Shown here one piece after another: positions 211 to 59,175 of a stretch of DNA of 64,000 nucleotides. Under the pieces are notes generated by a model, which did not search any database, had not been told where the DNA came from, and saw nothing but the letters and a program-made list of their open reading frames with translations. The translations under genes and the position numbers were made by a program. The DNA comes from Methyloversatilis universalis EHg5 (GTDB taxonomy: Bacteria; Pseudomonadota; Gammaproteobacteria; Burkholderiales; Rhodocyclaceae). Numbering within the stretch: the stretch's first letter is position 1; each line of letters starts with the position of its first letter. Location: assembly GCF_000378945.1 (NCBI RefSeq), contig NZ_KB900539.1, positions 613,241-677,240 of the forward strand, read 5' to 3'.

Positions 211-870
211 ATGGGTTCCAAGGTGTGTGCCATCGTCGGCATGGGTTCCGAGGTCGGCGCCGCCGTCGCGCGCCGCTTTGCGGCCGAAGGCTATTGCGTG
301 GCGATGATTTCGCGCGATGCCGGCAGGCTCGAACGCTATGAGCACGAACTGGCCGCACGCGGCGTGACCGCGCAAGGCTTCGTGGTCGATGCCGGCAGCG
401 ACGAATCGCTGGTGTCGGCGATCGAGGCGATGCGTCAGGCCATGCCGCCGCCCGAAGTGCTGGTGTTCAATGCTTCGGTGCCGCGCGAAAGCGCGCCCTC
501 GCTGCTCGACCCGGAAGCGCTGGCGTCCGATCTGCGGGTCGGCGTGCTCGGCGCACTGAGTGCGGCCCGTGCCGTGCTGCCGGCGATGCGCGCCGATGGC
601 CACGGCAGCATTCTCTACACCGGCGGCGGTCTCGCCGTCGAGCCGGTTGCGGCGGCGGCCTCGCTGTCGGTGCAGAAGGCGGCGCTGCGCAATCTGGTGT
701 TCAGCCTGCACCAGGAGCTGTCGCCGGCCGGCGTGCATGCGGCCATCGTCACCATTGCCGGCGTGCTGCGAGAAGGCAGCCTGCTTGATGCCGCCCGTGT
801 GGCCGACGCTTTCTGGACGCTGCATTCGCAGCCGCCGGGTCAGTTCGCCCGCGAAATAGTATTGTCCTGA
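211..870 (+). CDS. SDR-fold protein lacking the canonical Tyr/Ser catalytic residues
   Basis: A 219-residue protein with an N-terminal Rossmann nucleotide-binding motif (VGMGSEVG, residues 9-16) and the usual short-chain dehydrogenase layout. The catalytic lysine is present (K156 in SVQKAALR), but the residue four before it, normally the catalytic tyrosine, is Leu152. The usual serine region reads YTGGG. A classical oxidoreductase mechanism is therefore doubtful, although NAD(P) binding looks intact. The start is ATG 211 after a GGGAGA ribosome site. It could be an atypical reductase or a non-catalytic SDR; the substrate cannot be inferred. Confidence 0.8.
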   Translation: MGSKVCAIVGMGSEVGAAVARRFAAEGYCVAMISRDAGRLERYEHELAARGVTAQGFVVDAGSDESLVSAIEAMRQAMPPPEVLVFNASVPRESAPSLLDPEALASDLRVGVLGALSAARAVLPAMRADGHGSILYTGGGLAVEPVAAAASLSVQKAALRNLVFSLHQELSPAGVHAAIVTIAGVLREGSLLDAARVADAFWTLHSQPPGQFAREIVLS

Positions 871-966
871 GCCTATCCTGCCGGACGCGCCGCCCCGGGG
901 GCGCGCGTTCGAGCCTGCAACCCCGAGCCTTCAACCCCGAGCCTTCTTCGCAACCCAAGCCATTCC

Positions 967-1608
967 ATGACCGAACGCGCGCTGCACAGCGTACTGATCG
1001 CCAATCCCAAGGGCGGTGCCGGCAAGAGCACCCTCGCCACCAATGTCGCCGGCCACTGGGCCACCCAGGGCGCGCGCGTCATGCTGGGGGACATCGACCG
1101 CCAGCAGTCGGCCCGCCACTGGCTGGCGATGCGTTCGCCGCTGCTGTCGCCGATTTCCACCTGGGACATCGAACCTGAACAGCCGGCGCGTCCGCCGCGC
1201 GGCACCACCCACGTCGTGCTCGACACGCCGGCCGGCCTGCGCGGCAAGCGGCTGGAAGCCATGCTGAAGATGGTGGACCGGGTGCTCATTCCGGTGCAGC
1301 CCTCGATCTTCGACATCCTCGCCACCGGCGATTTCCTGACCGAACTGGCTGAACACAAGCGGGTGGCCGCGAAGAAGGTGAAGATAGGCATCGTCGGCAT
1401 GCGGGTGGATACGCGCACCCGTGCGGCACAGGAACTGGAGCGCTTCTGCGCCGGGCTGGACCTGCCGGTGCTCACCTATCTGCGCAATTCGCAGCTCTAT
1501 GTGCAGGCAGCGGCGCACGGCATGACGATATTCGACTTGTCGCGGGCGCGCACCCTGCCGGACCGCGAACAGTGGCAACCCCTCATCGACTGGCTGGATT
1601 CCCCATGA
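967..1608 (+). CDS. ParA/MinD-family ATPase
   Basis: A 213-residue ParA-like P-loop ATPase. The deviant Walker A box KGGAGKST (residues 15-22) has the extra 'signature' lysine of the family, and a short LDTPAGL segment corresponds to Walker B. There is no N-terminal helix-turn-helix, so it belongs to the small ParA/Soj type that positions cargo rather than the DNA-binding plasmid type. No parB or parS-like partner is adjacent. Its stop overlaps the start of the FMN reductase (ATGA at 1605-1608), implying translational coupling with a redox enzyme rather than with a segregation gene. Confidence 0.88.
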   Translation: MTERALHSVLIANPKGGAGKSTLATNVAGHWATQGARVMLGDIDRQQSARHWLAMRSPLLSPISTWDIEPEQPARPPRGTTHVVLDTPAGLRGKRLEAMLKMVDRVLIPVQPSIFDILATGDFLTELAEHKRVAAKKVKIGIVGMRVDTRTRAAQELERFCAGLDLPVLTYLRNSQLYVQAAAHGMTIFDLSRARTLPDREQWQPLIDWLDSP

Positions 1609-2240
1609 CTACACGCAACGGCAAGACCCTGGCGGTCGTCCGCGACAGCTCCGAACTCGACGGCGCCAAGGCGCGCATCCTGGTATTCGCCGGCAGCACC
1701 CGCGAGGCCTCGTTCAACCGCCGGCTGGCCATGGCCGCCGCGCGTTCGATCGGGGAAGCGGGCGGCGAAGCCACGCTGATGGAACTGCGTGACCACCCGC
1801 TGCCGCTGTACGAAGGCGATCTGGAAGCGTCGGCCGGCCTGCCGCTGGGCGTGCGTCCGCTGAAGGAGCTGTTCAAGGCGCACGACGGCCTGTTCATCGC
1901 CTCGCCCGAGTACAACGGCTCGGTCAGTGCGGTGCTCAAGAACGCGCTGGACTGGGTGTCGCGCCCGGCCGGCGATGAAGCCGGCACCGTGCCCTACGCC
2001 AACAAGGTGGTCGCACTGGGCGCTGCCTCGCCCGGCGCGCTTGGCGGCCTGCGCGGGCTGGTGCATCTGCGTGCGGTGCTGCAGTCGGTGGGTGCGCTGG
2101 TGCTGTCCGAACAGATCGCGGTCGGCGGCGCCGGCAGCGCCTTCACCCCGGACAACCGCCTCGCCGACGAGCGGCTGCAGCAGATGCTGGACCGCACCGT
2201 GGCCCGGCTGGTCGACGTCGCGTCACGCTTGCGCGGTTGA
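1605..2240 (+). CDS. NADPH-dependent FMN reductase family flavoprotein
   Basis: A 211-residue flavodoxin-fold protein. The phosphate-binding loop is GSTREASFN near residue 28, and the family segment SPEYNGSVSAVLKNALDW sits near residue 105. Such proteins bind FMN and reduce it, quinones or azo compounds with NAD(P)H in the cytoplasm. I chose ATG 1605 because it overlaps the upstream ParA stop as ATGA and gives the expected length; an ATG at 1572 would overlap ParA by 37 bases. The physiological electron acceptor is unknown. Confidence 0.88.
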   Translation: MTTRNGKTLAVVRDSSELDGAKARILVFAGSTREASFNRRLAMAAARSIGEAGGEATLMELRDHPLPLYEGDLEASAGLPLGVRPLKELFKAHDGLFIASPEYNGSVSAVLKNALDWVSRPAGDEAGTVPYANKVVALGAASPGALGGLRGLVHLRAVLQSVGALVLSEQIAVGGAGSAFTPDNRLADERLQQMLDRTVARLVDVASRLRG

Positions 2241-2285
2241 GTACGCAGCACCCGTTTTCCATATAAAAAGAGAGACTGAAGAGAC

Positions 2286-3059
2286 ATGAAGTACCTGCGC
2301 CTGCGCCACAACGGCGCCGAACGCCTGGGTCGCCTGAACGGCGGCACGGTCGAACTGCTGGACGGCGACCTGTTCGCCGCCCCGACGCCGACTGGCGAAA
2401 CCGTACCGGTCGAGGGCATCGAGTGGCTGATGCCCTGCGTGCCGCCCAAGATGGTCATCATCGTGCACAACATCCGCGCTGCGGTGGAGAAGGCCGGTCA
2501 CCCGATTCCGGAAGACCCGCTCTACCTCGTGCGCTCGCCGCAGGCGCTGAACTGGCACCAACAACCGATTCCGAAGCCCGCCGGTTTCGACGGCCGCGTG
2601 TTCTACGAAGGCGAACTGGGCGTGGTGGTGGGCAAGGTCGCCCGCAATCTGGACGAAGCGCAGGCGGCCGACGCCATCTTCGGCTACACCTGCATCAACG
2701 ACGTGAGCGCGCTCGAACTGGTGGACAGGAACCCGTCCTTCGGCCAATGGACCCGCGCCAAGAGCTTCGACGGCTTCGGCTGCTTCGGTCCGGTCATCTC
2801 GACCGACCCGCTGCCGGCCGATGCCGAAATCGTCACCACGGTCGGCGGCCGCGAGCGCCAGCGCTACCCGGTGACCGACATGATCTTCAATCCGGCGCAA
2901 CTGGTGTCGCGCATTTCGCGCGACATGACGCTGATGCCGGGCGACGTGATCTGCTGCGGTACGTCGGTGGGTGTGCTGCCGATGAAACCGGGCACCACGG
3001 TCGAGGTGACCGTGAGCGGTGTCGGCACGCTGAGCAACGTCTACGCGCCGACCGAGTGA
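2286..3059 (+). CDS. Fumarylacetoacetate hydrolase (FAH) family protein
   Basis: A 257-residue FAH-fold enzyme. The metal-binding core is visible as FYEGELGVVVGK (the E-x-E pair near residue 105), followed by GYTCINDVSALELV and RAKSFDGFGCFGP, with CGTSVGVLPMKPG near the C-terminus. Family members cleave or isomerise 2-oxo-dioates and acylpyruvates in aromatic or sugar-acid breakdown using Mg or Mn. No other degradation-pathway gene is adjacent, so the substrate is open. ATG 2286 follows a GAGACTGAAGAG purine stretch. Confidence 0.88.
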   Translation: MKYLRLRHNGAERLGRLNGGTVELLDGDLFAAPTPTGETVPVEGIEWLMPCVPPKMVIIVHNIRAAVEKAGHPIPEDPLYLVRSPQALNWHQQPIPKPAGFDGRVFYEGELGVVVGKVARNLDEAQAADAIFGYTCINDVSALELVDRNPSFGQWTRAKSFDGFGCFGPVISTDPLPADAEIVTTVGGRERQRYPVTDMIFNPAQLVSRISRDMTLMPGDVICCGTSVGVLPMKPGTTVEVTVSGVGTLSNVYAPTE

Positions 3060-3145
3060 CCGATACGCCGGAACGGCCTGTTCGTTCCGGCCCTGGTACG
3101 ACCTGAATCAAGGCGGCCGGACGCACCCCCCGCCATTCTGAAAAG

Positions 3146-4867
3146 ATGGACGCGCACGCCGGCCTGCCTCACCTGCAGCCCATCCTCCTCTTCCTCGCCA
3201 TCGCCGGCCTGGTGATGCCGCTGCTCGCCCGCGCGCGGGTGAGCCAGGTGGTGGCCTTCCTGGTCGCCGGCGCGCTGGTCGGGCCGCATGCGCTGGGCCG
3301 GCTGGCGGCCGAACACCGCTGGCTGGGCTGGTTCACCATCGCCGACGGCGAAGGCGTGCGGGTGCTGGCCGAACTGGGCGTCATGTTCATGCTGTTCGTG
3401 ATCGGCCTCGAACTGCCGGCGCGCCAGCTGTGGTCGCTGCGGCGCTGGGTGCTCGGCATCGGCAGCGCGCAGTGGCTGGTCTGCGGCGCGCTGATCGGTG
3501 GCGTCGCGCTGGCCTTCGGCCACGGCGAGGAAGCGGCGGTCGTGCTCGGCCTGGGGCTGGCCATGTCGTCCACCGCAGTGGTCATGCAGTTGCTGGCCGA
3601 GCGCGGTGAAACCCGGTCCACCGTCGGTCGCATGAGTTTCGCGGTGCTGCTGCTGCAGGACATCGCGGTGGTGCCCATGCTCATCCTGCTCGGCCTGATG
3701 GCCGGCAATGAGGGCGGTGGTCACTTCCTGACCCTGATGCTGACCGCGCTGCTGAAGGCCACCGCGGCGGTGGCGCTCATCCTGCTGACCGGTCGGCTGG
3801 TGCTCACCCCGCTGTTCCGCCGGGTATCGGTCACCACCCAGGCCGACAGTTTCATGGCGCTTACGCTGCTGGCCACGCTGGGCGTGGCGGCGCTGACCGG
3901 TGCGGCCGGCCTGTCGATGTCGCTCGGTGCCTTTCTCGCCGGCCTGATGCTGGCGGAAACCGAATACCGCCACGCCGCGCTGCTGGCGATCGAGCCCTTC
4001 AAGGGCCTGCTGATGGGCCTGTTCTTCGTGTCGGTCGGCATGAGCCTGAACCTGCCTGAGGCGGCCGGCAACGCTGGCTGGCTGGTGGCATCGGTATTCG
4101 GTCTGTACGCGATCAAGAGCGCCACCATGTATCTGCTGTTCCGCCGCGCCGGGCTGGCACGCGGTGAGGCGACCGAGGCCGCGCTGCTGCTCGGCCAGGC
4201 CGGCGAATTCAGTTTCATCGTGCTCGGGCTGGCCACTGCTACCGGTGTGCTGGCCAGTCCGGTCGGCAACTTCATGCTGCTGGTGGTCACGCTCAGCATG
4301 TTCCTGACGCCGCTGGCGGCACGCCTCGGCCACGCGCTGCACCGCCGGCTGGACGCGCGTGGCGATCAGGCGATTCCGCCGCCGCCCGGGCCGGACGCCG
4401 ACGACGGCGTGGTCATCATCGCCGGCTTCGGCCGCGTCGGACAGATGGTGGCGCGGTTGCTGGACCGTGCCGGCGTGCGCTGGGTGGCGATAGAGCGCCA
4501 TGTTGCCGCCGCCACCCGTCACCACGAACAGGGGCTGCCGGTCATCGTCGGCGATGCCGGCCGGCCGGCGTTGCTGCATCACCTGGGGGCGGGGCGCGCA
4601 CGTGCCATCGTGGTCACGATGGACGACAGTGCGGCGGCGCGCCATGTGGTGCTCAGCCTGCGCGCCGAATTCCCGTCGCTGCCGCTGATCGCGCGGGCGC
4701 GCGACGCCGAGCACGGCCGTCAGCTGGTCGAGGCGGGCGCGAGCGAAGTGATTCCCGAGGCGCTGGAGGCGGCGCTGCAGATGGGGGTGCATGTGCTCAC
4801 CCGGGTCGGCGTGGATGCCGAAACCGGTGAGCGGCTGATCGAGGCGGAGCGCGCCGCCGGCATCTGA
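3146..4867 (+). CDS. CPA2-family cation:proton antiporter with RCK/TrkA-N domain (KefB/KefC-like)
   Basis: A 573-residue inner-membrane antiporter. About 12 hydrophobic segments fill residues 10-395, with the family signatures ELGVMFMLFVIGLEL and LLLQDIAVVP, the latter holding the QD pair of the ion path near residue 170. A cytoplasmic RCK (TrkA-N) domain begins near residue 422 with IIAGFGRVGQ, a dinucleotide-binding loop. Homologues export K+ or Na+ in exchange for H+ and are gated by nucleotide or glutathione adducts. No kefF/kefG ancillary gene is adjacent, so glutathione gating is not supported by context. Confidence 0.92.
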   Translation: MDAHAGLPHLQPILLFLAIAGLVMPLLARARVSQVVAFLVAGALVGPHALGRLAAEHRWLGWFTIADGEGVRVLAELGVMFMLFVIGLELPARQLWSLRRWVLGIGSAQWLVCGALIGGVALAFGHGEEAAVVLGLGLAMSSTAVVMQLLAERGETRSTVGRMSFAVLLLQDIAVVPMLILLGLMAGNEGGGHFLTLMLTALLKATAAVALILLTGRLVLTPLFRRVSVTTQADSFMALTLLATLGVAALTGAAGLSMSLGAFLAGLMLAETEYRHAALLAIEPFKGLLMGLFFVSVGMSLNLPEAAGNAGWLVASVFGLYAIKSATMYLLFRRAGLARGEATEAALLLGQAGEFSFIVLGLATATGVLASPVGNFMLLVVTLSMFLTPLAARLGHALHRRLDARGDQAIPPPPGPDADDGVVIIAGFGRVGQMVARLLDRAGVRWVAIERHVAAATRHHEQGLPVIVGDAGRPALLHHLGAGRARAIVVTMDDSAAARHVVLSLRAEFPSLPLIARARDAEHGRQLVEAGASEVIPEALEAALQMGVHVLTRVGVDAETGERLIEAERAAGI

Positions 4868-4904
4868 TGCCGGACGGCGCCACCGTCTGACGCGCGGGCA
4901 GGCC

Positions 4905-5248
4905 TCAGGGCTTCACGCCCGGCGGCAGTGCCGGCTTGCTCTCGACGCGGGTCGGGATGTGCTGGTCGTGGCCTTCGATGGCCGGATGTTCCTGACCGGC
5001 ATGTACATGATGGGTCGCGGTGCTGGCGCCCGGCGGCAGCGCCGGCTTGCTCTCGACACGGGTCGGGATGTGCTGGTCATGGCCCTCGACCGCCGGGTGC
5101 TCCTGACCAGCATGCACATGGTGGGTCGCGGTGCTTACGCCCGGCGGCAGCGCCGGGGTGTTTTCGACCGCGGTCGGCATGTGCTGGTCATGGCCTTCGA
5201 TCGCCGGGTGTTCCTGACCGGCGTGCACCTTCTTGGTTTTCGTGCTCA
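4905..5248 (-). repeat. 111-bp in-frame tandem repeat within the His-rich protein
   Basis: Three copies of a 111-bp unit plus a partial fourth, each encoding 37 residues. The copies differ by a few bases (for example ATHHVHAG versus KTKKVHAG). The two units nearest the stop codon are the most alike, as expected of recent expansion by slippage or unequal crossover. Confidence 0.8.
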
Positions 5249-5408
5249 CGCCGGGCGGCAGCGCCGGCTTGGTGGCGATGTTCGCGGCCTTCTTGCCCTT
5301 TACCGCCTCGGCCGGGTGGTCGGCGCCGGCGTGCTTGCCCGACGCGTCCGCCCAGACCGGGGCGCTGATACAGAGGGAGAGCGCGATGACGGCCCATGGC
5401 TTGTTCAT
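4905..5408 (-). CDS. Secreted or periplasmic histidine-rich tandem-repeat protein
   Basis: A 167-residue protein with a signal peptide (MNKPWAV...PVWADA, cleaved near residue 21). Most of the mature part is three near-identical 37-residue repeats (PALPPG...HVHAGQEHPA.EGHDQH.PT.VE) plus a partial fourth copy, PALPPGVKP, at the C-terminus; a decayed copy (KHAGADHPAEAV) precedes them. Each repeat carries five or six His and several acidic residues, a composition that would suit Zn, Cu, Ni or Co binding (inference). ATG 5408 is chosen for the GGAAGG ribosome site and the signal peptide; an in-frame upstream ATG would add 26 non-signal residues. The family is not recognised. Confidence 0.8.
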   Translation of the reverse strand: MNKPWAVIALSLCISAPVWADASGKHAGADHPAEAVKGKKAANIATKPALPPGVSTKTKKVHAGQEHPAIEGHDQHMPTAVENTPALPPGVSTATHHVHAGQEHPAVEGHDQHIPTRVESKPALPPGASTATHHVHAGQEHPAIEGHDQHIPTRVESKPALPPGVKP

Positions 5409-5542
5409 GATGTCTTCCTTCCGATTGGTGGGGTAGTTAAGTCCAGTCTGCGCTGGATCGTGCGCTGCAGCATTGACGTGTCTCAAGCGGAGGCCGCGCG
5501 CGATATCCGCGCTCGTACTCCAACGCTATGCTGTGACGCACG

Positions 5543-6349
5543 ATGACCTTATCACTTCCGCCACTGCTTTTCCTTCATGCCAACGGCTACCCGGCCGGCG
5601 TGTATCGGCGCTTCCTGGAGCCGCTGGCCGCCACCCGTTCGGTGCATGCGATCGAGGCGCTGGGCATTGACGTGCAGCATGGCCCCGGCCGCGGCTGGCG
5701 GCGTCTGCACGCGCAGGTGTGCGGCGTCATCGAACGGCTGCCGGAAGGCCCGCTGGATCTGGTCGGCCACTCGATGGGCGGCTGGTTGGCGGCGATGGCT
5801 GCTGCCCGCCAGCACGGCCGGCCGGTGCGGGTGGTGCTGATCGATTCGCCCATGGTGCTGGGCTGGCGCGCCGCGCTGGTGTCGGCGGCCAAGGCCTCCG
5901 GCCTGACCTGGCGGGTCGGCCCGGCGCCGGTGGCGGCGCGCAGGCGCCAGCACTGGGCATCGCGCGAAGAAGCGCGCGCTCACCTCGGCGCGAAGGAGTT
6001 CGTGCGGCGCTGGGCGCCCGGCGTGTTTGACGACTTTCTGCAGGCCGGCCTGCGCACGCTGCCTGACGGCAGCGTCACGCTGGCCATTGCGCGCGAAATC
6101 GAGCGCGACGTGTATGCCACCATCGCCCACCGCGAAGCCTTGCGAGCGGTGCGTCGGCTGCGTGCACGCGGCGTGCCTGTGGGCTTCATCGCCGGTCGCG
6201 ATTCGGATGAACTGCGGCTGGCCGGCCGTGAGCAGAATCGCCGTTTCTGGGGCCGCGACTGGGTGGAACTGCCGACCGGCCATCTGGTGCCGATGGAGGC
6301 GCCGGGGGCCTGCGCGCAGGCGGTGGCGGCGCTACTCGGCGCCGCCTGA
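5543..6349 (+). CDS. Alpha/beta hydrolase
   Basis: A 268-residue alpha/beta-hydrolase-fold protein. It has an oxyanion segment LLFLHANGYPAGVY near the N-terminus, the nucleophile elbow GHSMGG (Ser near residue 76), a probable acid in AGRDSDE and the catalytic His in PTGHLVPMEAP. This is a complete Ser-His-Asp triad for an esterase, lipase or C-C hydrolase; the substrate is unknown. The start ATG 5543 lacks a strong ribosome site. Its 3' end overlaps the convergent TRAP permease gene by 18 bp. Confidence 0.85.
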   Translation: MTLSLPPLLFLHANGYPAGVYRRFLEPLAATRSVHAIEALGIDVQHGPGRGWRRLHAQVCGVIERLPEGPLDLVGHSMGGWLAAMAAARQHGRPVRVVLIDSPMVLGWRAALVSAAKASGLTWRVGPAPVAARRRQHWASREEARAHLGAKEFVRRWAPGVFDDFLQAGLRTLPDGSVTLAIAREIERDVYATIAHREALRAVRRLRARGVPVGFIAGRDSDELRLAGREQNRRFWGRDWVELPTGHLVPMEAPGACAQAVAALLGAA

Positions 6350-7990
6350 CAGCGCTTCGGCGCGCTCGATGGCCGCTTCCAGCCCGGCGTCCGGGTGGCC
6401 GGCCGGCAGCAGCGGCTGACCGGCGCCGCGGCCATAGTCGGCGTCCATCACGCTGCCCTGACCGGCCGCCCGCTGCGGGCCGCCGAGATTGGCGGTCACC
6501 AGCTGCGGGAAGGCCAGCACCAGCGCCACCATCACGATCTGTATGCCGACGAAAGGCACCGCGCCCCAGTAGATGTCACGCGTGGGCAGCGTCTTCGGCG
6601 CCACCGAGCGCAGGTAGAACAGCGCGAAGCCGAAGGGCGGGTGCATGAAGGAGGTCTGCATGTTCACCGCCAGCAGCACGCCGAACCACACCAGATCGAT
6701 GCCCAGCTTGTCGGCCACCGGCGCCAGCAGCGGCACCAGGATGAAAGCCAGCTCGAAGAAGTCGAGGAAGAAGGCGAGCACGAACACCAGCAGCATGACC
6801 GCGATCAGGAAGCCGGTCTGGCCGCCGGGCAGCGACAGCAGCAGGTGCTCGACCCACAGGTGGCCGTCGATGCCGTAGAAGGTGAGCGAAAACAGCCGCG
6901 CGCCGATCAGGATGAACAGCACGAAGCAGGTGAGCCGCACCGTGCGGTCCAGCGCCTGGTTCAGCAGTTCGCCGCTCAGGCGGCGCCGCGCCAGCGCCAT
7001 CAGCAGCGCGCCGGCCGCACCCATCGCGCCGCCTTCGGTGGGTGTGGCCAAACCGAGGTAGATGGTGCCCAGCACCAGGAAGATGAGCGCCAGCGGCGGC
7101 ATCAGCACGAAGGCCACGCGGCGCGCCAGATCCGGCAGCAGGTTCAGGCGCAGCAGGCGGTCGGCCAGCGCGGCCAGCCAGGCCACCGCTCCGCCGGCGG
7201 TGACCGACAGCAGCGCGCGCGCGTCAGTGGTGTGCGCCTGCAGCGCCGGCAGCTGGCTGGCCGCGACACCGGCCGCCACCGCCAGCGCGAACAGCGCCCA
7301 TACGCCACGCCGTTCCGCGGCGTCATGGTCGTCCGCTTCCGGCAGCGCCGGTGCGCTGTGCGGTTTCAGCCAGGCCATGGCCAGCACGTACACGAGATAG
7401 AGGCCGGTCAGCACCAGACCGGGCAGCAATGCGCCGCGGTACATGTCGCCCACCGGGCGGTTGAGCTGGTCGCCGAGCACGATGAGCACCAGCGAAGGCG
7501 GAATGATCTGCGCCAGCGTGCCCGAGGCGGCGATCACGCCGCTGGCCAGCCGCGCGTCGTAGCCGGCGCGCAGCATGATGGGCAGCGAGATCAGGCCCAT
7601 TGAAATGACCGAAGCCGCGACCACGCCGGTGGTGGCGGCCAGCATGGCGCCGACCAGTACCACCGCCACCGCCAGCCCGCCGCGCAGCGTGCCGAACAGC
7701 CGGCCCACCGTATCGAGCAGGTCTTCCGCCATGCCCGACCGTTCGAGCAGCAGGCCCATGAAAGTGAAGAAGGGAATGGCCAGCAGCGTGTCGTTGCTCA
7801 TGACGCCGAACACCCGGTCCGGCATGGCCTGCACCAGCGAGGCCGACAGCAGCCCCAGCTCGATGCCGATCAGCCCGAACACGATGCCGCAGGTGGCCAG
7901 CGCGAACGCCACCGGCGCCCCTGACAGCAGGAACAGCACCATGGCGAAAAACATCACCGGGGCCAGATTGGCGGCCAGCCAGGCGGTCAT
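6332..7990 (-). CDS. TRAP transporter large permease (DctM-like)
   Basis: A 552-residue inner-membrane protein with some 12-14 hydrophobic stretches. It has DctM-family segments such as SNDTLLAIPFFTFMGLLLERSG and ASGTLAQIIPPSLVLIVLGD in the first half and GLATPTEGGAMGAAGAL in the second. It forms the ion-motive-force-driven translocation channel for organic acids. It is longer than a minimal DctM (about 430 residues) because of a central loop and a 40-residue C-terminal tail. ATG 7990 overlaps the dctQ stop (ATGA). No periplasmic DctP receptor gene is next to the pair. Confidence 0.92.
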   Translation of the reverse strand: MTAWLAANLAPVMFFAMVLFLLSGAPVAFALATCGIVFGLIGIELGLLSASLVQAMPDRVFGVMSNDTLLAIPFFTFMGLLLERSGMAEDLLDTVGRLFGTLRGGLAVAVVLVGAMLAATTGVVAASVISMGLISLPIMLRAGYDARLASGVIAASGTLAQIIPPSLVLIVLGDQLNRPVGDMYRGALLPGLVLTGLYLVYVLAMAWLKPHSAPALPEADDHDAAERRGVWALFALAVAAGVAASQLPALQAHTTDARALLSVTAGGAVAWLAALADRLLRLNLLPDLARRVAFVLMPPLALIFLVLGTIYLGLATPTEGGAMGAAGALLMALARRRLSGELLNQALDRTVRLTCFVLFILIGARLFSLTFYGIDGHLWVEHLLLSLPGGQTGFLIAVMLLVFVLAFFLDFFELAFILVPLLAPVADKLGIDLVWFGVLLAVNMQTSFMHPPFGFALFYLRSVAPKTLPTRDIYWGAVPFVGIQIVMVALVLAFPQLVTANLGGPQRAAGQGSVMDADYGRGAGQPLLPAGHPDAGLEAAIERAEALSGGAE

Positions 7991-8502
7991 CGGACCGTCT
8001 CCACGCCGTCGGCGAGCGTGGCGAGCCGGCGCACGATGAGCGCCAGGGCCTGCAGCGTGAGCAGCGCGAAGCCGGCCGGCACCAGGATGCGGGCCGGCCA
8101 CAGCGGCAGGCCGCCGGCGCTGGCCGACACTTCGTGGCTGAGCCAGGCGCCGACGAACCAGGGCCAGGACAGCCACAGCATGAGCAGCGACACCGGCAGT
8201 ACGGTCAGCGCCAGCGCGGCGATGTCGGCCTTCAGCCGGCCGCGCGGCGACAGGCGCGACGTCAGCAGGTCGATGCGTACGTGCTCGTCCAGTTTCAGCA
8301 CCCGGCCGGCGCCGAGCAGGAAGGCGGCCGATACCAGATACCACTGCGCTTCCAGCAGCGCGTTCGATCCGGCGTCGAACTTGCGGGCCAGCGCATTGCC
8401 CACCGCCAGCAGCACCGCGCCCAGGATGGTCCACGGCAGAACCCTGCCGCAGGCCTCGTTCAGGCGGTCGATCAGGTCGGCAAGCGAGAGCAGTGCGCGC
8501 AT
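7987..8502 (-). CDS. TRAP transporter small permease (DctQ-like)
   Basis: A 171-residue membrane protein with four predicted helices, and the family motif GAGRVLKLDEHVRIDLL after the second helix. It pairs with the large permease encoded immediately downstream, with a 4-bp ATGA overlap. The substrate is unknown because the solute-binding protein is not encoded here. ATG 8502 is the first start in the frame that gives a hydrophobic N-terminal helix. Confidence 0.9.
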   Translation of the reverse strand: MRALLSLADLIDRLNEACGRVLPWTILGAVLLAVGNALARKFDAGSNALLEAQWYLVSAAFLLGAGRVLKLDEHVRIDLLTSRLSPRGRLKADIAALALTVLPVSLLMLWLSWPWFVGAWLSHEVSASAGGLPLWPARILVPAGFALLTLQALALIVRRLATLADGVETVR

Positions 8503-8869
8503 GGCGGGCGGGTGAAGGATGAAGGCGCGATGGTACCGGCAGCGGGCGCTCCGCGGTGCCCGCCTGTCTGTCGGTTGCGCACTGACGAGGGCGGCAGCGG
8601 TGGGCCGGATGGCGTGTGGCGAGGTGCCGGAGGCTACATCGCGGCGAGGCCGCCGCGCCCACCCGGGCCTGGCGAGGGCTTGAGCGGATTTCGTGGGAGC
8701 GGCGCCTCGCCGCGATCAGGGCGGTGGATCAGACACTGTTCGTGGTCCCGGGCGGAATCGCGACGAGGCGTCGCTCCCACAATGGCTTGGCCGCGTGCGC
8801 GAGAACAGCGCCGCGCCCACCGGCAGAAGCGGCGACCTACAATACTGCATCGCACAAGGATTGCCCGTC
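8503..8869. other. 367-bp intergenic region holding REP-like palindromes
   Basis: No gene is supported between dctQ (leftward) and the histidine phosphatase (rightward). The region should hold both divergent promoters, but its recognisable content is the REP-like pair at 8693-8780 and a degenerate third copy near 8638-8662. Confidence 0.7.
8693..8780. repeat. REPIN-like inverted pair of 24-bp REP sequences
   Basis: Bases 8693-8716 begin gtgggagcggcgcctcg. Bases 8757-8780 are the same 24-mer in reverse complement with two mismatches, separated by 40 bp. This is the classic REPIN layout: two inverted extragenic palindromes beginning GTGGGAGCG. A degenerate reverse-oriented copy lies at about 8638-8662. 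REPs of this type are normally mobilised in trans by a RAYT transposase, and none is encoded in the window. Confidence 0.75.
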
Positions 8870-9514
8870 ATGACCGCTACCACCCGCATCTGCCTCGTCC
8901 GCCACGGCGAAACCACCTGGAATGTCGACCGCCGGGTGCAGGGCCAGATCGACATTCCGCTGAACGATCACGGGCTGCGGCAGGCGCAGGCCACCGCGCA
9001 GGCGCTGCTGGGTGAGCGCATCGATCACCTCTACGGCTCCGACCTCGGTCGCGCCTGGGTGACCGCCGGCCGCATCGCGGTGCCGCGCGGACAGGCGGTG
9101 ATGCCCGAGCCGCTGCTGCGCGAGCGGCACTACGGCGCCTTTCAGGGCCTTACCTACAGCGAGGCGCGCGAGCGGCATCCGGACATTTTCCAGCGCTTCG
9201 AGGCCCGCGAGCCGGCGCTGCGTTTTCCGGGCGACACCGGCGAAAGCCTGGTCCAGTTCGACGCCCGCATCTGGGGCCTGGTCGAGGCCCTGCGCGTCCG
9301 GCACGCCGGTCACACGCTGCTGCTGGTGACCCACGGCGGCGTGCTCGACATCGTGGCCCGCCGCGTGCGCGGCCTGCCGCTCACCGGCAAGCGCGATTTC
9401 GACATCGCCAACTGCGCACTGAACTGGATCGCCCACGACGCAGCCGGCTGGCGCATCGAGCGCTGGGGCGACGTCGCCCACCTCGATGGCGCGCTGGACG
9501 AACTGCCGGCCTGA
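8870..9514 (+). CDS. Histidine phosphatase family protein (phosphoglycerate-mutase-like)
   Basis: A 214-residue branch-1 histidine phosphatase. It has the phospho-acceptor motif LVRHGETTWN (His near residue 11), the family segment GSDLGRAW, the acid in RERHYGAFQGLTY and the second His in LVTHGGVLD. Relatives dephosphorylate small molecules such as alpha-ribazole phosphate or 2-phosphoglycolate in the cytosol. The start ATG 8870 places the RHG motif at the expected distance from the N-terminus. The specific substrate is not predictable from sequence. Confidence 0.88.
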   Translation: MTATTRICLVRHGETTWNVDRRVQGQIDIPLNDHGLRQAQATAQALLGERIDHLYGSDLGRAWVTAGRIAVPRGQAVMPEPLLRERHYGAFQGLTYSEARERHPDIFQRFEAREPALRFPGDTGESLVQFDARIWGLVEALRVRHAGHTLLLVTHGGVLDIVARRVRGLPLTGKRDFDIANCALNWIAHDAAGWRIERWGDVAHLDGALDELPA

Positions 9515-9541
9515 ATCGTCATCGCCTGCGGGGCTGGCATC

Positions 9542-10640
9542 GGCGTAACGGCCGGGAGGTGCCCTCAGACGCTGCCCGCGCAGGGGGCGACCGGGCACCC
9601 GCGTGCGCTCGCCGTGGGCGAGCACACCCTACCGGCCGGGTTCGGGAGGCCGTGCATCAGGCGAATGAGTCGGGCATCCATCCGGTCATGGTGACACCGT
9701 AGGTGTGCAGGCCGCAGGCCTGCGCACGCGGACTCGCGGCGCCTGCGACGTTCAACGGCCGTCATCGCCGGCAGCGGCAGGCGCGTCCGTAACGGCCGGG
9801 AGGCGCGGCTCTCGCAGGCTCAGACGCTGCCCGCGAATGGGGCGACCGGGCATCCGCGTGCGCTCGCCGTGGGCGAGCACACCCTACCGGCCGGGTTCGT
9901 GAGGCCGTGCATCAGGCGAATGAGTCGGGGCATCCTTCCGGTCATGGTGACACCGTAGGGTGTGCAGGCCGCAGGCCTGCGCACGCGGACTCGCGGCGCT
10001 TGCGACGGTCAACGGCCGTCACGCCGGCAGCGGCAGACGCGTCCGTAATGGTCGGGAGGTACGGCTCTCGCAAGCCCAGGCGCTGCCCGCGCAGGGGGGC
10101 GACCAGGCATCCGCGTGCGCTCGCCATAGGCGAGCACACCCTACCGCCGGGTTCGGGAGGCCGTGCTCATTAGGGGGTATCACCTCCGGTCATGGTGACA
10201 CCGTAGGGTGTGCAGGCCGCAGGCCTGCGCACGCGGACTTGCGGCGCCTGCGACGGTCAACGGCCGTCATCGCCGGCAGCGGCAGGCGCGTCCGTAACGG
10301 CCGGGTGGCGCGGCTCTCGCAGGCTCAGACGCTGCCCGCGAATGTGGCGATCGGGCATCCGCGTGCGCTCGCCGTGGGCGAGCACACCCTACCGGCCGGG
10401 TTTGGGAGGCCGTGCACATCAGGGGGCATCCCCCCGGTCATGGTGACACCGTAGGGTGTGCAGGCCGCAGGCCTGCGCACGCGGACTCGCGGCGCATGCG
10501 ACGCTCAACGGCCGTCATTGCCGGTAGCGGCAGATGCGTCCGTAACGGCCGGGAGGTACGGCTCTCGCAGGCTCAGACGCTGTCCGCGAATGTGGCGATC
10601 GGGCATCCGTGTGCGCTCGCCGTTGGCGAGCACACCCTAC
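9542..10640. repeat. Tandem array of about 190-bp elements alternating with decayed gene 3' ends
   Basis: Four complete elements lie at 9699-9887, 9955-10144, 10203-10392 and 10451-10640, with a left-truncated one at 9542-9632. Full copies begin gtagggtgtgc (the first has gtaggtgtgc) and end gcacaccctac, an 11-bp terminal inverted repeat. Each also carries an internal palindrome around gcaggccgcaggcctgc. The 58-67 bp between elements (9633-9698, 9888-9954, 10145-10202, 10393-10450) resemble the last about 65 bp of the leftward gene that ends at 10637, for example gccgtgcatcaggcg versus gccgcgcatcaggcg and the shared gtcatggtgac. The repeating period is 248-256 bp. No gene is supported in the array. 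Confidence 0.88.
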
Positions 10641-11200
10641 CGGTTGGCGGCGGGGTTCAGGAAGCCGCGCATCAGGCGGGTGAGGCGCGGCATGACCACC
10701 CAGGTCATGGTGACCACGATGAGCCCGGTCAGCAGCGCCACGCGTGCCAGAAAGGGCAGCGGGTTGAGCCAGGGCGCGACCAGCCACAGAAAGAGCGACA
10801 CGGTCGGGAAGATGCCCATCCAGGTGACCAGCGCCATGCGGGCGCGTGGCGGGTGGGTGGACGGCGCGACCACCTGCGGGCCGAACCACGCTTCGAGCCC
10901 GGTCACCACCCGGTATTCCGGTTCGTTTTCGCCGGCCGCGCACAGGCGCGGCTGCAGTGCGGCGCGGGTGGGGCTTTCGTCCCAGGCCTTCAGGTCGGCT
11001 TCGGAGCGGAAGTGGGCGATCACCTGATAGTCGCCACCCGGCGCTTCCGGCGTGATCATCTGCGCACCCATGAAGCCCGGCGCCTCGCGCATGGCGGCGA
11101 ACATTTCGCGCACCAGCGCTTCGTATTCCTGCTCGTAACCGAGCTTTGCGCGGCGGCGGGCGATGCGGGTGACGTGGGCTTGCGGAGGCGTGGCGCTCAT
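10637..11200 (-). CDS. ABM-domain protein with C-terminal membrane helices
   Basis: A 187-residue protein. Residues 5-105 resemble the antibiotic-biosynthesis-monooxygenase (ABM) fold (RIARRRAKLGYEQEYEAL, APGFMGAQMI, YQVIAHFRSEADLKAW). About residues 125-172 form two hydrophobic helices (MALVTWMGIFPTVSLFLWLV and FLARVALLTGLIVVTMTWVV). Such ABM-membrane fusions are known but have no defined substrate. The TAG stop at 10637-10639 lies inside the terminal repeat of the adjacent array, so the extreme C-terminus may have been fixed by the repeat insertion. Downstream of it are partial copies of its own 3' end. Confidence 0.82.
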   Translation of the reverse strand: MSATPPQAHVTRIARRRAKLGYEQEYEALVREMFAAMREAPGFMGAQMITPEAPGGDYQVIAHFRSEADLKAWDESPTRAALQPRLCAAGENEPEYRVVTGLEAWFGPQVVAPSTHPPRARMALVTWMGIFPTVSLFLWLVAPWLNPLPFLARVALLTGLIVVTMTWVVMPRLTRLMRGFLNPAANR

Positions 11201-57468: not shown

Positions 57469-59175
57469 ATGAACGCCACTGCACGCCAGCCCGGACCGGG
57501 CGAACTTCAGCCCCTGTTCAATCTGTACAACGCCGGCCGTCTGGCTGAAGCGGTGACGGCCGCGCGCCAGCTGGTCGCCCGCTACCCGGCCGCGGTGGTG
57601 GTGCACAGCGTGCTCGGTTCGGCGCTGGCCGGCCTGGGCCGGCTGGACGAGGCGGAACAGGCGTTTGCCGCTGCGGTGAAGGCCAACCCGGCGTCGGCCG
57701 AACTGCTCACCAATCTCGGTCTGGTGCAGCAGCAGCGCGGCCGGCTGGACGAAGCGCTGGCCACCTATACCCGCGCGGTCGCCATCCGGCGCGACTTTCC
57801 CGAACTGCTGTACAACCTGGGCGGGGTGCAGGACGCACTGGGCCGGCTGGACGAGGCAGCTGCCAGCTACCGGCGCGCGATCGCACTGCAGCCGCGCTTT
57901 GCGCTCGCCCATTTCAACCTCGGCACCGTGCTTGACCGGGCCGGTGCGCGCGACGAGGCCATCGCCAGCTACCGGCGCGCGGTGGACGCGGAGCCCGGTT
58001 TCGTCGAGGCGTGGTCCAATCTCGGTGCCGCGCTGCAGAAATCGGGCGATGCCGAACAGGCGGTGCGCTGCTACCAGAAGGCGCTGGACATCCAGCCCAA
58101 CGCCACCGCCTGGTTCAATCTGGGCACCGCGCAGCGCGCCTACGGCCTGATGATGGATGCGGCCGAAAGCTACCGGCGCGCGATCGCGCTGGCGCCGGAA
58201 TATGCCGACGCCCACAGCAATCTGGGCGAAATCCTGCGCGATCAGGGCGACGGCGAAGGCACGCTGGCCGCCTTCCGCGCTGCGCTGGCGATTGACCCGG
58301 GCCACGGCGGCGCGCACTACAACCTCGGCCTGCTGCACCACGATCTGCACGAGTACGACAAGGCGCTGCCCTATTTCGAGAAGGCGCGCGTGCTCGATGC
58401 TGACGACCGGGTGCTGTACTGCCTGTACAAGCTGCGTCGCAGCGACGAGTTCGAAGCACGGCTGCAGGCGCGGCTGGGCGAACGCCATCGTTCGCCGATG
58501 CTGGCCACGCTGTCGGCCCATCACGCGACCAACCGTCGCCGGCCTGACCCGTACCGCTTCTGCCCGGACCCGGTGGCGCTGGTGCATCACGCCCGTCTCG
58601 ACCCGCTGACCGACCCGGCCGACAGCCTGCTGGCCGATCTGCTGCGCGATGTGACCAACGCCGACATCCAGCAGCGCAAGCAGGGCCGGCTGCACTACGG
58701 CGTGCAGTCGTCCGGCCACCTGTTCCGGCGACCGGAAGCGTCGTTCGCGCGGCTGATGACGCTGATCCGCGACGAAATCGATCGCTACCGGCAGCGGCTG
58801 GCCGGGGAGGCGTGCGTATATGCGCAGGACTTTCCGCCGACCACCGAATTCGCCAGTTCCTGGTACGTGAAGATGAGCAGGGGTGGCCACCTCACCTCGC
58901 ACATCCACGAAGAGGGCTGGCTGTCCGGCGTGCTCTACCTCGCCATGCCCTCGGACCGGCCGGCCGGCAGCACCGATGGCGGCATCGAATTCAGCACCGA
59001 CGGCGACGACTACCCGCGCGAGCACGACGACTTTCCGCGCCGCACCCTGCTGCCCGAGGTCGGCGACATCGTGCTGTTCCCGTCCTCGCTGTTCCACCGC
59101 ACCATTCCGTTCCAGTCGAACGAAGAGCGCATCTGCATCGCTTTCGACGTGAAGCCGGCGGTGGCCGGCGACTGA
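57469..59175 (+). CDS. TPR protein with C-terminal putative 2OG-Fe(II) oxygenase domain
   Basis: A 568-residue protein. Residues 10-340 hold about nine TPR units (for example ASYRRAIALQPRFALAHFNLG). Residues 380-565 form a double-stranded beta-helix oxygenase of the PF13759 type, with iron ligands suggested by HLTSHIHEEGWLSGVLYL and FPSSLFHRTIPF and the co-substrate Arg in NEERICIAFDV. TPR-oxygenase fusions probably hydroxylate proteins. A tatatatatgc promoter-like stretch lies 46 bp upstream of the ATG. Confidence 0.85.
   Translation: MNATARQPGPGELQPLFNLYNAGRLAEAVTAARQLVARYPAAVVVHSVLGSALAGLGRLDEAEQAFAAAVKANPASAELLTNLGLVQQQRGRLDEALATYTRAVAIRRDFPELLYNLGGVQDALGRLDEAAASYRRAIALQPRFALAHFNLGTVLDRAGARDEAIASYRRAVDAEPGFVEAWSNLGAALQKSGDAEQAVRCYQKALDIQPNATAWFNLGTAQRAYGLMMDAAESYRRAIALAPEYADAHSNLGEILRDQGDGEGTLAAFRAALAIDPGHGGAHYNLGLLHHDLHEYDKALPYFEKARVLDADDRVLYCLYKLRRSDEFEARLQARLGERHRSPMLATLSAHHATNRRRPDPYRFCPDPVALVHHARLDPLTDPADSLLADLLRDVTNADIQQRKQGRLHYGVQSSGHLFRRPEASFARLMTLIRDEIDRYRQRLAGEACVYAQDFPPTTEFASSWYVKMSRGGHLTSHIHEEGWLSGVLYLAMPSDRPAGSTDGGIEFSTDGDDYPREHDDFPRRTLLPEVGDIVLFPSSLFHRTIPFQSNEERICIAFDVKPAVAGD

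Follow-up and report, generated by a model that had tools for sequence, protein, structure and literature searches.

The window analysed here, the whole 64,000-nucleotide stretch G000:C1:613241-677240, lies in a 4.09-Mb genome that is assembled in two contigs and rated 100% complete. Two convergent genes, encoding a member of the histidine phosphatase superfamily (gene A) and a 187-aa ABM-domain protein (gene B), are separated by 1122 bp, nearly all of which is taken up by a tandem array (Table 1). The array is a BIME at window positions 9517–10640 that contains four REP-a repeats and five inverted REP-b repeats. Its modules, 248–257 bp long, run in the order REP-a, a segment of ~120 bp designated X, inverted REP-b, and a 58–67-bp copy of the tail of gene B. 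The organization is that of a BIME in that REP orientations alternate, there are two constant inter-REP segments, and the unit is repeated in tandem.

The modular structure was recovered in three ways. Repeat finding returned four copies of 210 nt at spacings of 257, 248, and 248; TRF reported positions 9564–10643 with a period of 248, 4.3 copies, and 90% matches; and self-alignment of the array paired 9517–10395 with 9760–10643 at 89% identity. These results uphold the proposal of a sequence-only reading of the window that the locus consists of tandem modules, each a gene 3′ end plus a palindromic-ended segment. The array it described is real, but homology on the left reaches to ~9517 rather than 9542, and the spacing is 248–257 bp rather than 248–256 bp. 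Array homology begins 2 bp beyond the stop codon of gene A. By alignment, modules 2–5 diverge from one another by 3–12%, and because of this divergence and the complete two-contig genome, an assembly artefact is an unlikely source of the array. Its native ends are the left-most partial module on the left and gene B on the right.

Table 1. Features of the array and its flanking genes (window coordinates)
Feature	Position	Strand	Remarks
Gene A	8870..9514	+	PF00300, E=5.6e-59; coding end found in three relatives too
Left-most partial module	9517..9632	+	Native left end of X and REP-b, without preceding REP-a; by alignment
REP-b 1	9599..9632	-, inverted	GTAG head ends at 9632
Captured copy 1 of gene B 3′ end	9633..9698	-	Local score 69; reached by 0/2000 shuffles
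REP-a 1	9699..9732	+	Head GTAGG, one G fewer
Segment X, module 2	9733..9852	+	Locus-specific
REP-b 2	9853..9887	-
Captured copy 2 of gene B 3′ end	9888..9954	-	Local score 61; 0/2000 shuffles
REP-a 2	9955..9989	+
Segment X, module 3	9990..10109	+
REP-b 3	10110..10144	-	11-bp stem, -13.9 kcal/mol, z=-5.05
Captured copy 3 of gene B 3′ end	10145..10202	-	9-bp deletion; local score 31; 1/2000 shuffles
REP-a 3	10203..10237	+	11-bp stem, -13.7 kcal/mol, z=-3.60
Segment X, module 4	10238..10357	+
REP-b 4	10358..10392	-
Captured copy 4 of gene B 3′ end	10393..10450	-	Same 9-bp deletion; local score 33; 0/2000 shuffles
REP-a 4	10451..10485	+
Segment X, module 5	10486..10605	+
REP-b 5	10606..10640	-	Stem -13.1 kcal/mol, z=-4.31
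Gene B	10637..11200	-	PF03992, E=8.7e-10; 90–91% identical orthologues in G001–G003

REP repeats, gene B tails, and segment X

The ends gtagggtgtgc/gcacaccctac noted in the sequence-only reading are real and are now seen to be the heads of two REP subtypes, which that reading had not recognized. The repeats have the build of GTAG-type REPs, a GT(A/G)G head and, behind it, an imperfect palindrome that is GC-rich and 20–40 nt long; folding of three of them gave an 11-bp stem closed by a 3-nt loop, with the GTAG head in front. The subtypes differ in the upper stem, which is AGGCC-GGCCT in REP-a and TCGCC-GGCGA in REP-b. A genome-wide count of the bare head, GTAGGGTGTGC, gave 24 occurrences (2 for the reversed control), one of which (L026) has no palindrome after it, and full REPs matching one pattern occur 23 times (reversed control, 0). 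Together with two array REPs that miss the pattern, the genome thus holds at least 25 dispersed REPs of ~35 bp each, nine of them in the array and eight around a RAYT gene. This number is smaller than the >100 copies usual per genome (PMC2817692). The TAG stop codon of gene B (10637–10639) sits inside the GTAG head (10640–10637) of REP-b 5.

The tail copies derive from the last ~78 bp of gene B (10637–10714), a longer stretch than the ~65 bp first estimated. Copies 1 and 2 are very clear because no shuffle of 2000 equalled their scores; copies 3 and 4 are weak alone (shuffle maxima of 32 and 30) but can be aligned to the clear copies. The second inter-REP segment is therefore homologous to the 3′ coding end of the adjacent gene, as had been claimed for the decayed bases between the elements, and the alignments identify the real gene B end at the right edge of the array as the source, in keeping with the first half of the suggestion that the gene-fused copy is the progenitor or the survivor. 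Compared with gene B, all four copies have the same 7-bp gap and a number of substitutions in common and therefore go back to one capture that was multiplied afterwards. Tail copies 1 and 2 are 97% alike and copies 3 and 4 are 91% alike, whereas the X segment of module 2 is nearest to that of module 4 (97%), a mosaic pattern such as recombination among modules would give.

When compared alone with the genome, the interior of X gave five matches, all inside the array, and the ~190-bp segment as a whole was not found dispersed as a REPIN or MITE of that size would be (40 of 113 first-look candidates scored). The whole array gave 20 matches elsewhere, all centred on REPs (40 of 74 candidates scored); two of these extend 23 bp into tail copy 3, onto the BIME spacer flanking the RAYT gene, and one extends 18 bp into X. 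The notion that the ~190-bp segment belongs to a mobile or structured repeat family was thus not borne out, since among the candidates scored only the REPs recur outside the array. X looks like local intergenic DNA because the left-most module begins 2 bases past the gene A stop codon without a REP-a. A composite 190-bp mobile element, REPIN or MITE, inserted repeatedly beside copies of the gene end would find a parallel in the REP pairs with a common spacer at L010, L017, and L037, and some such pairs may move as units; confinement of X to the array among the 40 of 113 candidates scored, the periodic spacing, and the derived changes shared by the tails point instead to one capture with local amplification and make repeated insertion very improbable.

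We also considered whether X holds a captured end of gene A and rejected this. The comparison took the 28 bp that separate REP-a from the portion in common with the left-most module; of 5000 shuffles, 41, 721, 361, and 469 scored as well in modules 2, 3, 4, and 5, respectively, such that module 2 alone hints at a relationship and modules 3–5 do not; against the window, 779 to 8124 of 63,970 30-mers score equally well.

The RAYT gene, related genomes, and gene tails at other loci

The RAYT gene, P0001 (C1:2230839-2231366, locus L010), lies 1.6 Mb from the array. Its product belongs to the Pfam family Y1_Tnp and matches 4er8 (E. coli TnpA-REP) with E=5.3e-49 over query residues 1 to 167, with the HxH motif and the tyrosine in register. 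The gene sits between two 224-bp double BIMEs that are 96% identical and carry eight REPs of the array type, the arrangement of a REPtron, in which a Y1/HUH transposase gene is flanked by inverted copies of the same REP. Both this gene and the recurrence of tail copies at other genes are additions to the account that the sequence-only reading had given. The bracketing 224-bp direct repeats (L010:1105-1328 and 1985-2208; 96%) could permit loss of the RAYT gene by recombination.

Relatives of gene B are encoded in 6 of 13 genomes of the genus, its own included. In G001–G003, gene B adjoins gene A as in the window, and the gap between them, ~210–330 bp, contains no such REP, no tail copy, and no array. 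The REP pattern is present in 1 of the 13 genomes and absent from the 12 others, and RAYT searches of G001–G003 returned distant matches only (best E values from 7e-8 to 1e-4). Array, REPs, and RAYT accordingly co-occur, in that the syntenic genomes lack all three, apart from distant RAYTs; the joint occurrence of REPs and RAYTs is already published (PMC2817692). Four genomes (G004, G009, G010, and G011) encode RAYT relatives at 52–53% beside another REP, GTAGGTTGGGG.

Other repeats were seen in the same settings. The A–B gaps of the relatives carry TGTGGGAGCG repeats. In the window, a second REP-like family forms an inverted pair, GTGGGAGCGGCGCC..., at 8693–8716 and 8757–8780 (92% complementary), upstream of gene A, and a second Y1 transposase gene (C1:2181308-2181718, L009) is surrounded by ORFs that resemble read-through repeats of the GTGGGAGCGGCGCC kind.

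Tail copies beside REPs also occur at other genes. At L002, also in this genome, the final ~54 bp of a PF00908 gene, which we take to be rfbC, recur as a decayed copy directly 5′ of a single REP-a (88% over 49 bp; score 68, shuffle maximum 31, reached by 0 of 1000 shuffles). An rfbC remnant at L007:1499-1800 (C1:2197418-2197719) is split by a REP-a with a tail–REP joint like that at L002; it is possibly an older array whose gene has since decayed, and because it probably shares common descent with L002, it was not counted as a separate capture. A long target duplication at every REP insertion was considered and rejected: the 5′ and 3′ flanks have a direct repeat in common at L002 and in the array but not at six other REPs of this genome (L004 twice, L007 twice, L017, and L037; 90 to 893 of 1000 shuffles reached the score). 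The reverse flank test at L004 gave 21 of 1000 shuffles, but that match consists of masked letters only.

Further cases came from loci that surround related RAYTs or REPs of two other genomes, G004 and G011, the REPs of G011 being a sample drawn from the positions listed. Gene tails duplicated together with a REP were found for an N6_Mtase/HsdM gene (hsdM) of Methylobacter luteus (L188), a Pyr_redox (oxidoreductase) gene of a gammaproteobacterial MAG (L121), a glyoxalase gene of G035 (L102), and a 4HFCP-synthase gene of G011, a member of the genus of the window (L279). Two cases are weaker: an ORF without a Pfam match near an N stretch (L131), and a flavodoxin gene tail in the draft assembly G009, duplicated across a single N beside a REP (L092:1080-1340), which is possibly an assembly join and may be an unresolved tail–REP array. 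L155, L161, and L181 are rayt tails, the published type, and L140 is probably likewise.

These cases derive in part from a codon-filter screen of 170 partly overlapping loci (for example, L091/L239 and L097/L273), 110 of them from RAYT searches (L087–L196) and 60 from fetched regions (L227–L286). The screen flagged eight: L092, L102, L121, L140, L161, L188, L238, and L279. L238, with only 24 bp, was set aside after reading by eye, and L131, L155, and L181 were picked by eye from a looser list. As a control, 36 overlapping tiles of the window were screened, four of them having repeats, the array among them, and none was flagged. Decayed cases escape the filter, among them the window array and rfbC, and eight of 170 therefore gives no capture frequency.

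Junctions and the origin of the array

In seven of eleven captures, the captured tail, with the native gene end as the reference, ends 3–7 nt 5′ of the GTAG head: 3 nt in the window, 7 at L002, 5 at L188, 3 at L121, 5 at L102, 4 at L155, and 4 at L181, the last two being rayt tails. At L161 the tail ends 24 nt before GTAG, and L279, L131, and L140 have no head-proximal junction; L092 was left out for its N. Random breakpoints in the same units would place 0.91 of 11 joints in this interval, and 0 of 200,000 simulations reached seven. The 7-nt limit and the list of cases were chosen afterwards, with the window and L002 as discovery cases, so that the result is a strong lead rather than a test.

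Single-strand cutting by TnpA-REP near the 5′ or 3′ side of a REP, with strand transfer, has been described (PMC8266576). Published cleavage lies between C and T and, for one enzyme, also at CA. Cleavage between C and T was considered as a signature of the joints and proved weak: exact CT microhomology, 2 bp on the strand opposite to GTAG, is present at 2 of the 10 listed tandem duplications (L155 and L181), and the window junction has neither CT nor AG.

We lean, on sequence comparison and with modest confidence, toward the view that the feature is a BIME with a captured host-gene 3′ end that arose by RAYT cut-and-join and subsequent recombination. The cut, made by the RAYT (an HUH/Y1 single-strand nuclease), would fall a few bases 5′ of a REP head, and the RAYT would join the resulting end to a break within the 3′ part of gene B. 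This would set a tail copy directly against the REP, giving a [REP-a – X – REP-b – tail] module, and the direct repeats would then be multiplied and partly homogenized by ordinary recombination or slippage. Because the left end is without a REP-a, the first step is not directly readable from the array. We think that the array began when a cut specific to the REP, close to its head, was joined to the gene end, and the RAYT is the obvious candidate enzyme. Similar tail copies next to REPs, both at further genes and in different bacteria, suggest that the transposase-like enzyme of the repeats helps make them. Amplification to five modules is explicable by recombination alone.

A RAYT may not have been needed at all. 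Replication slippage or illegitimate recombination at REP hairpins could have copied [X + REP-b + gene tail], with amplification by unequal crossing-over and the REPs only stimulating breakage. The recombination-like mosaic of tail and X similarities described above, the stable single-strand folds of the REPs, and the 2-bp microhomology at the two rayt-tail duplications all fit such a duplication. It does not account for why seven of eleven joints lie 3–7 nt 5′ of a GTAG head when they could fall at any point of the unit, and gene B is without a REP at the matching point, so that REP–REP homology is unable to make the joint. We therefore hold RAYT-independent duplication to be a credible account that falls somewhat short of probable.

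Carried further, the capture reading would mean that duplication of ordinary host-gene 3′ ends is a routine activity of RAYT/REP systems, in which the enzyme sets one end of the piece a few bases before GTAG and takes the other inside the neighbouring gene; this generalization, drawn from sequence comparisons, is offered tentatively and with more doubt than assurance. If it is true, BIME arrays would be fossil records of single-strand cut-and-join events, and host tails would be a general source of BIME spacers. BIME formation and the cellular role of RAYTs are still largely inferred, and ordinary-gene tails supply polarity and breakpoints: the native gene end reveals the starting point of the copy and the way it was attached to the REP. 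The head-proximal joint, if upheld in a large survey, would be a sequence signature of RAYT action, would let array growth be followed, and would account for decayed gene-end fragments downstream of genes.

Relation to known systems and possible local role

The closest likeness is to the rayt-adjacent BIMEs of Nunvar et al. (2010, PMC2817692), where 3′ ends of rayt genes were captured as inter-REP segments in four cases. As here, those modules have two inverted REPs and two intervening segments arranged head to tail, and the gene 3′ end with the sequence up to the REP constitutes an inter-REP segment; the paper proposes that RAYT drives their amplification and that BIMEs form by a rolling-circle process, likewise RAYT-driven (PMC2817692). 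The captured tail was the rayt gene's own (PMC2817692), whereas here it belongs to an unrelated gene 1.6 Mb from the RAYT and, elsewhere, to other host genes. REPIN clusters of Pseudomonas fluorescens SBW25 (Bertels and Rainey 2011, PMC3116915) are likewise tandem repeats that include flanks around paired REPs; in the accessible text, the flanks are not described as neighbouring coding ends, and the junction is not placed relative to GTAG. GTAG-tagged REP clusters (2013, PMC3733652) share with the array the TAG stop codons from GTAG heads, the preference for convergent or unidirectional gaps, and reiteration with flanking DNA segments, and arrays in Thauera are described there too; gene-tail capture was not found in the part of that paper available.

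Captured tails of genes other than rayt were not found in the literature by a search that was thin on subscription papers and did not extend to supplements. BIMEs, REP clusters with flanking DNA, and rayt-tail capture are known already; what appears to be new is the tails of ordinary genes, and we class the array as a BIME with one novel trait rather than as a separate system.

The array may influence genes A and B at their 3′ ends, and it could have been kept for a local role, as a block to transcription, protection of mRNA 3′ ends, or slowed translation at the gene B stop codon. Nine hairpins between convergent genes would suit such a function, and E. coli BIMEs reportedly attenuate transcription, to judge from titles in reference lists. 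GTAG REPs occur preferentially in gaps between unidirectional or convergent genes and frequently provide the stop codon (PMC3733652), and ribosome stalling has been reported in E. coli for REPs that lie no more than 15 nt from a stop codon (PMC12306157). We nevertheless consider retention for a local role unlikely, as no terminator-like site was found in 9300–10900, no Rfam match within the array (one sub-threshold match lay outside it), and three relatives with the same gene pair have no array. Such a role is compatible with capture by a RAYT and does not exclude it.

Elsewhere in the window, a 111-bp tandem repeat of 3.2 copies (4913–5271) lies inside a 193-aa ORF on the minus strand (4905–5486), which has a repeated HVHAGQEHPA..GHDQH motif, and a degenerate direct repeat of ~102 bp with 68% identity is present at 57698–57981.
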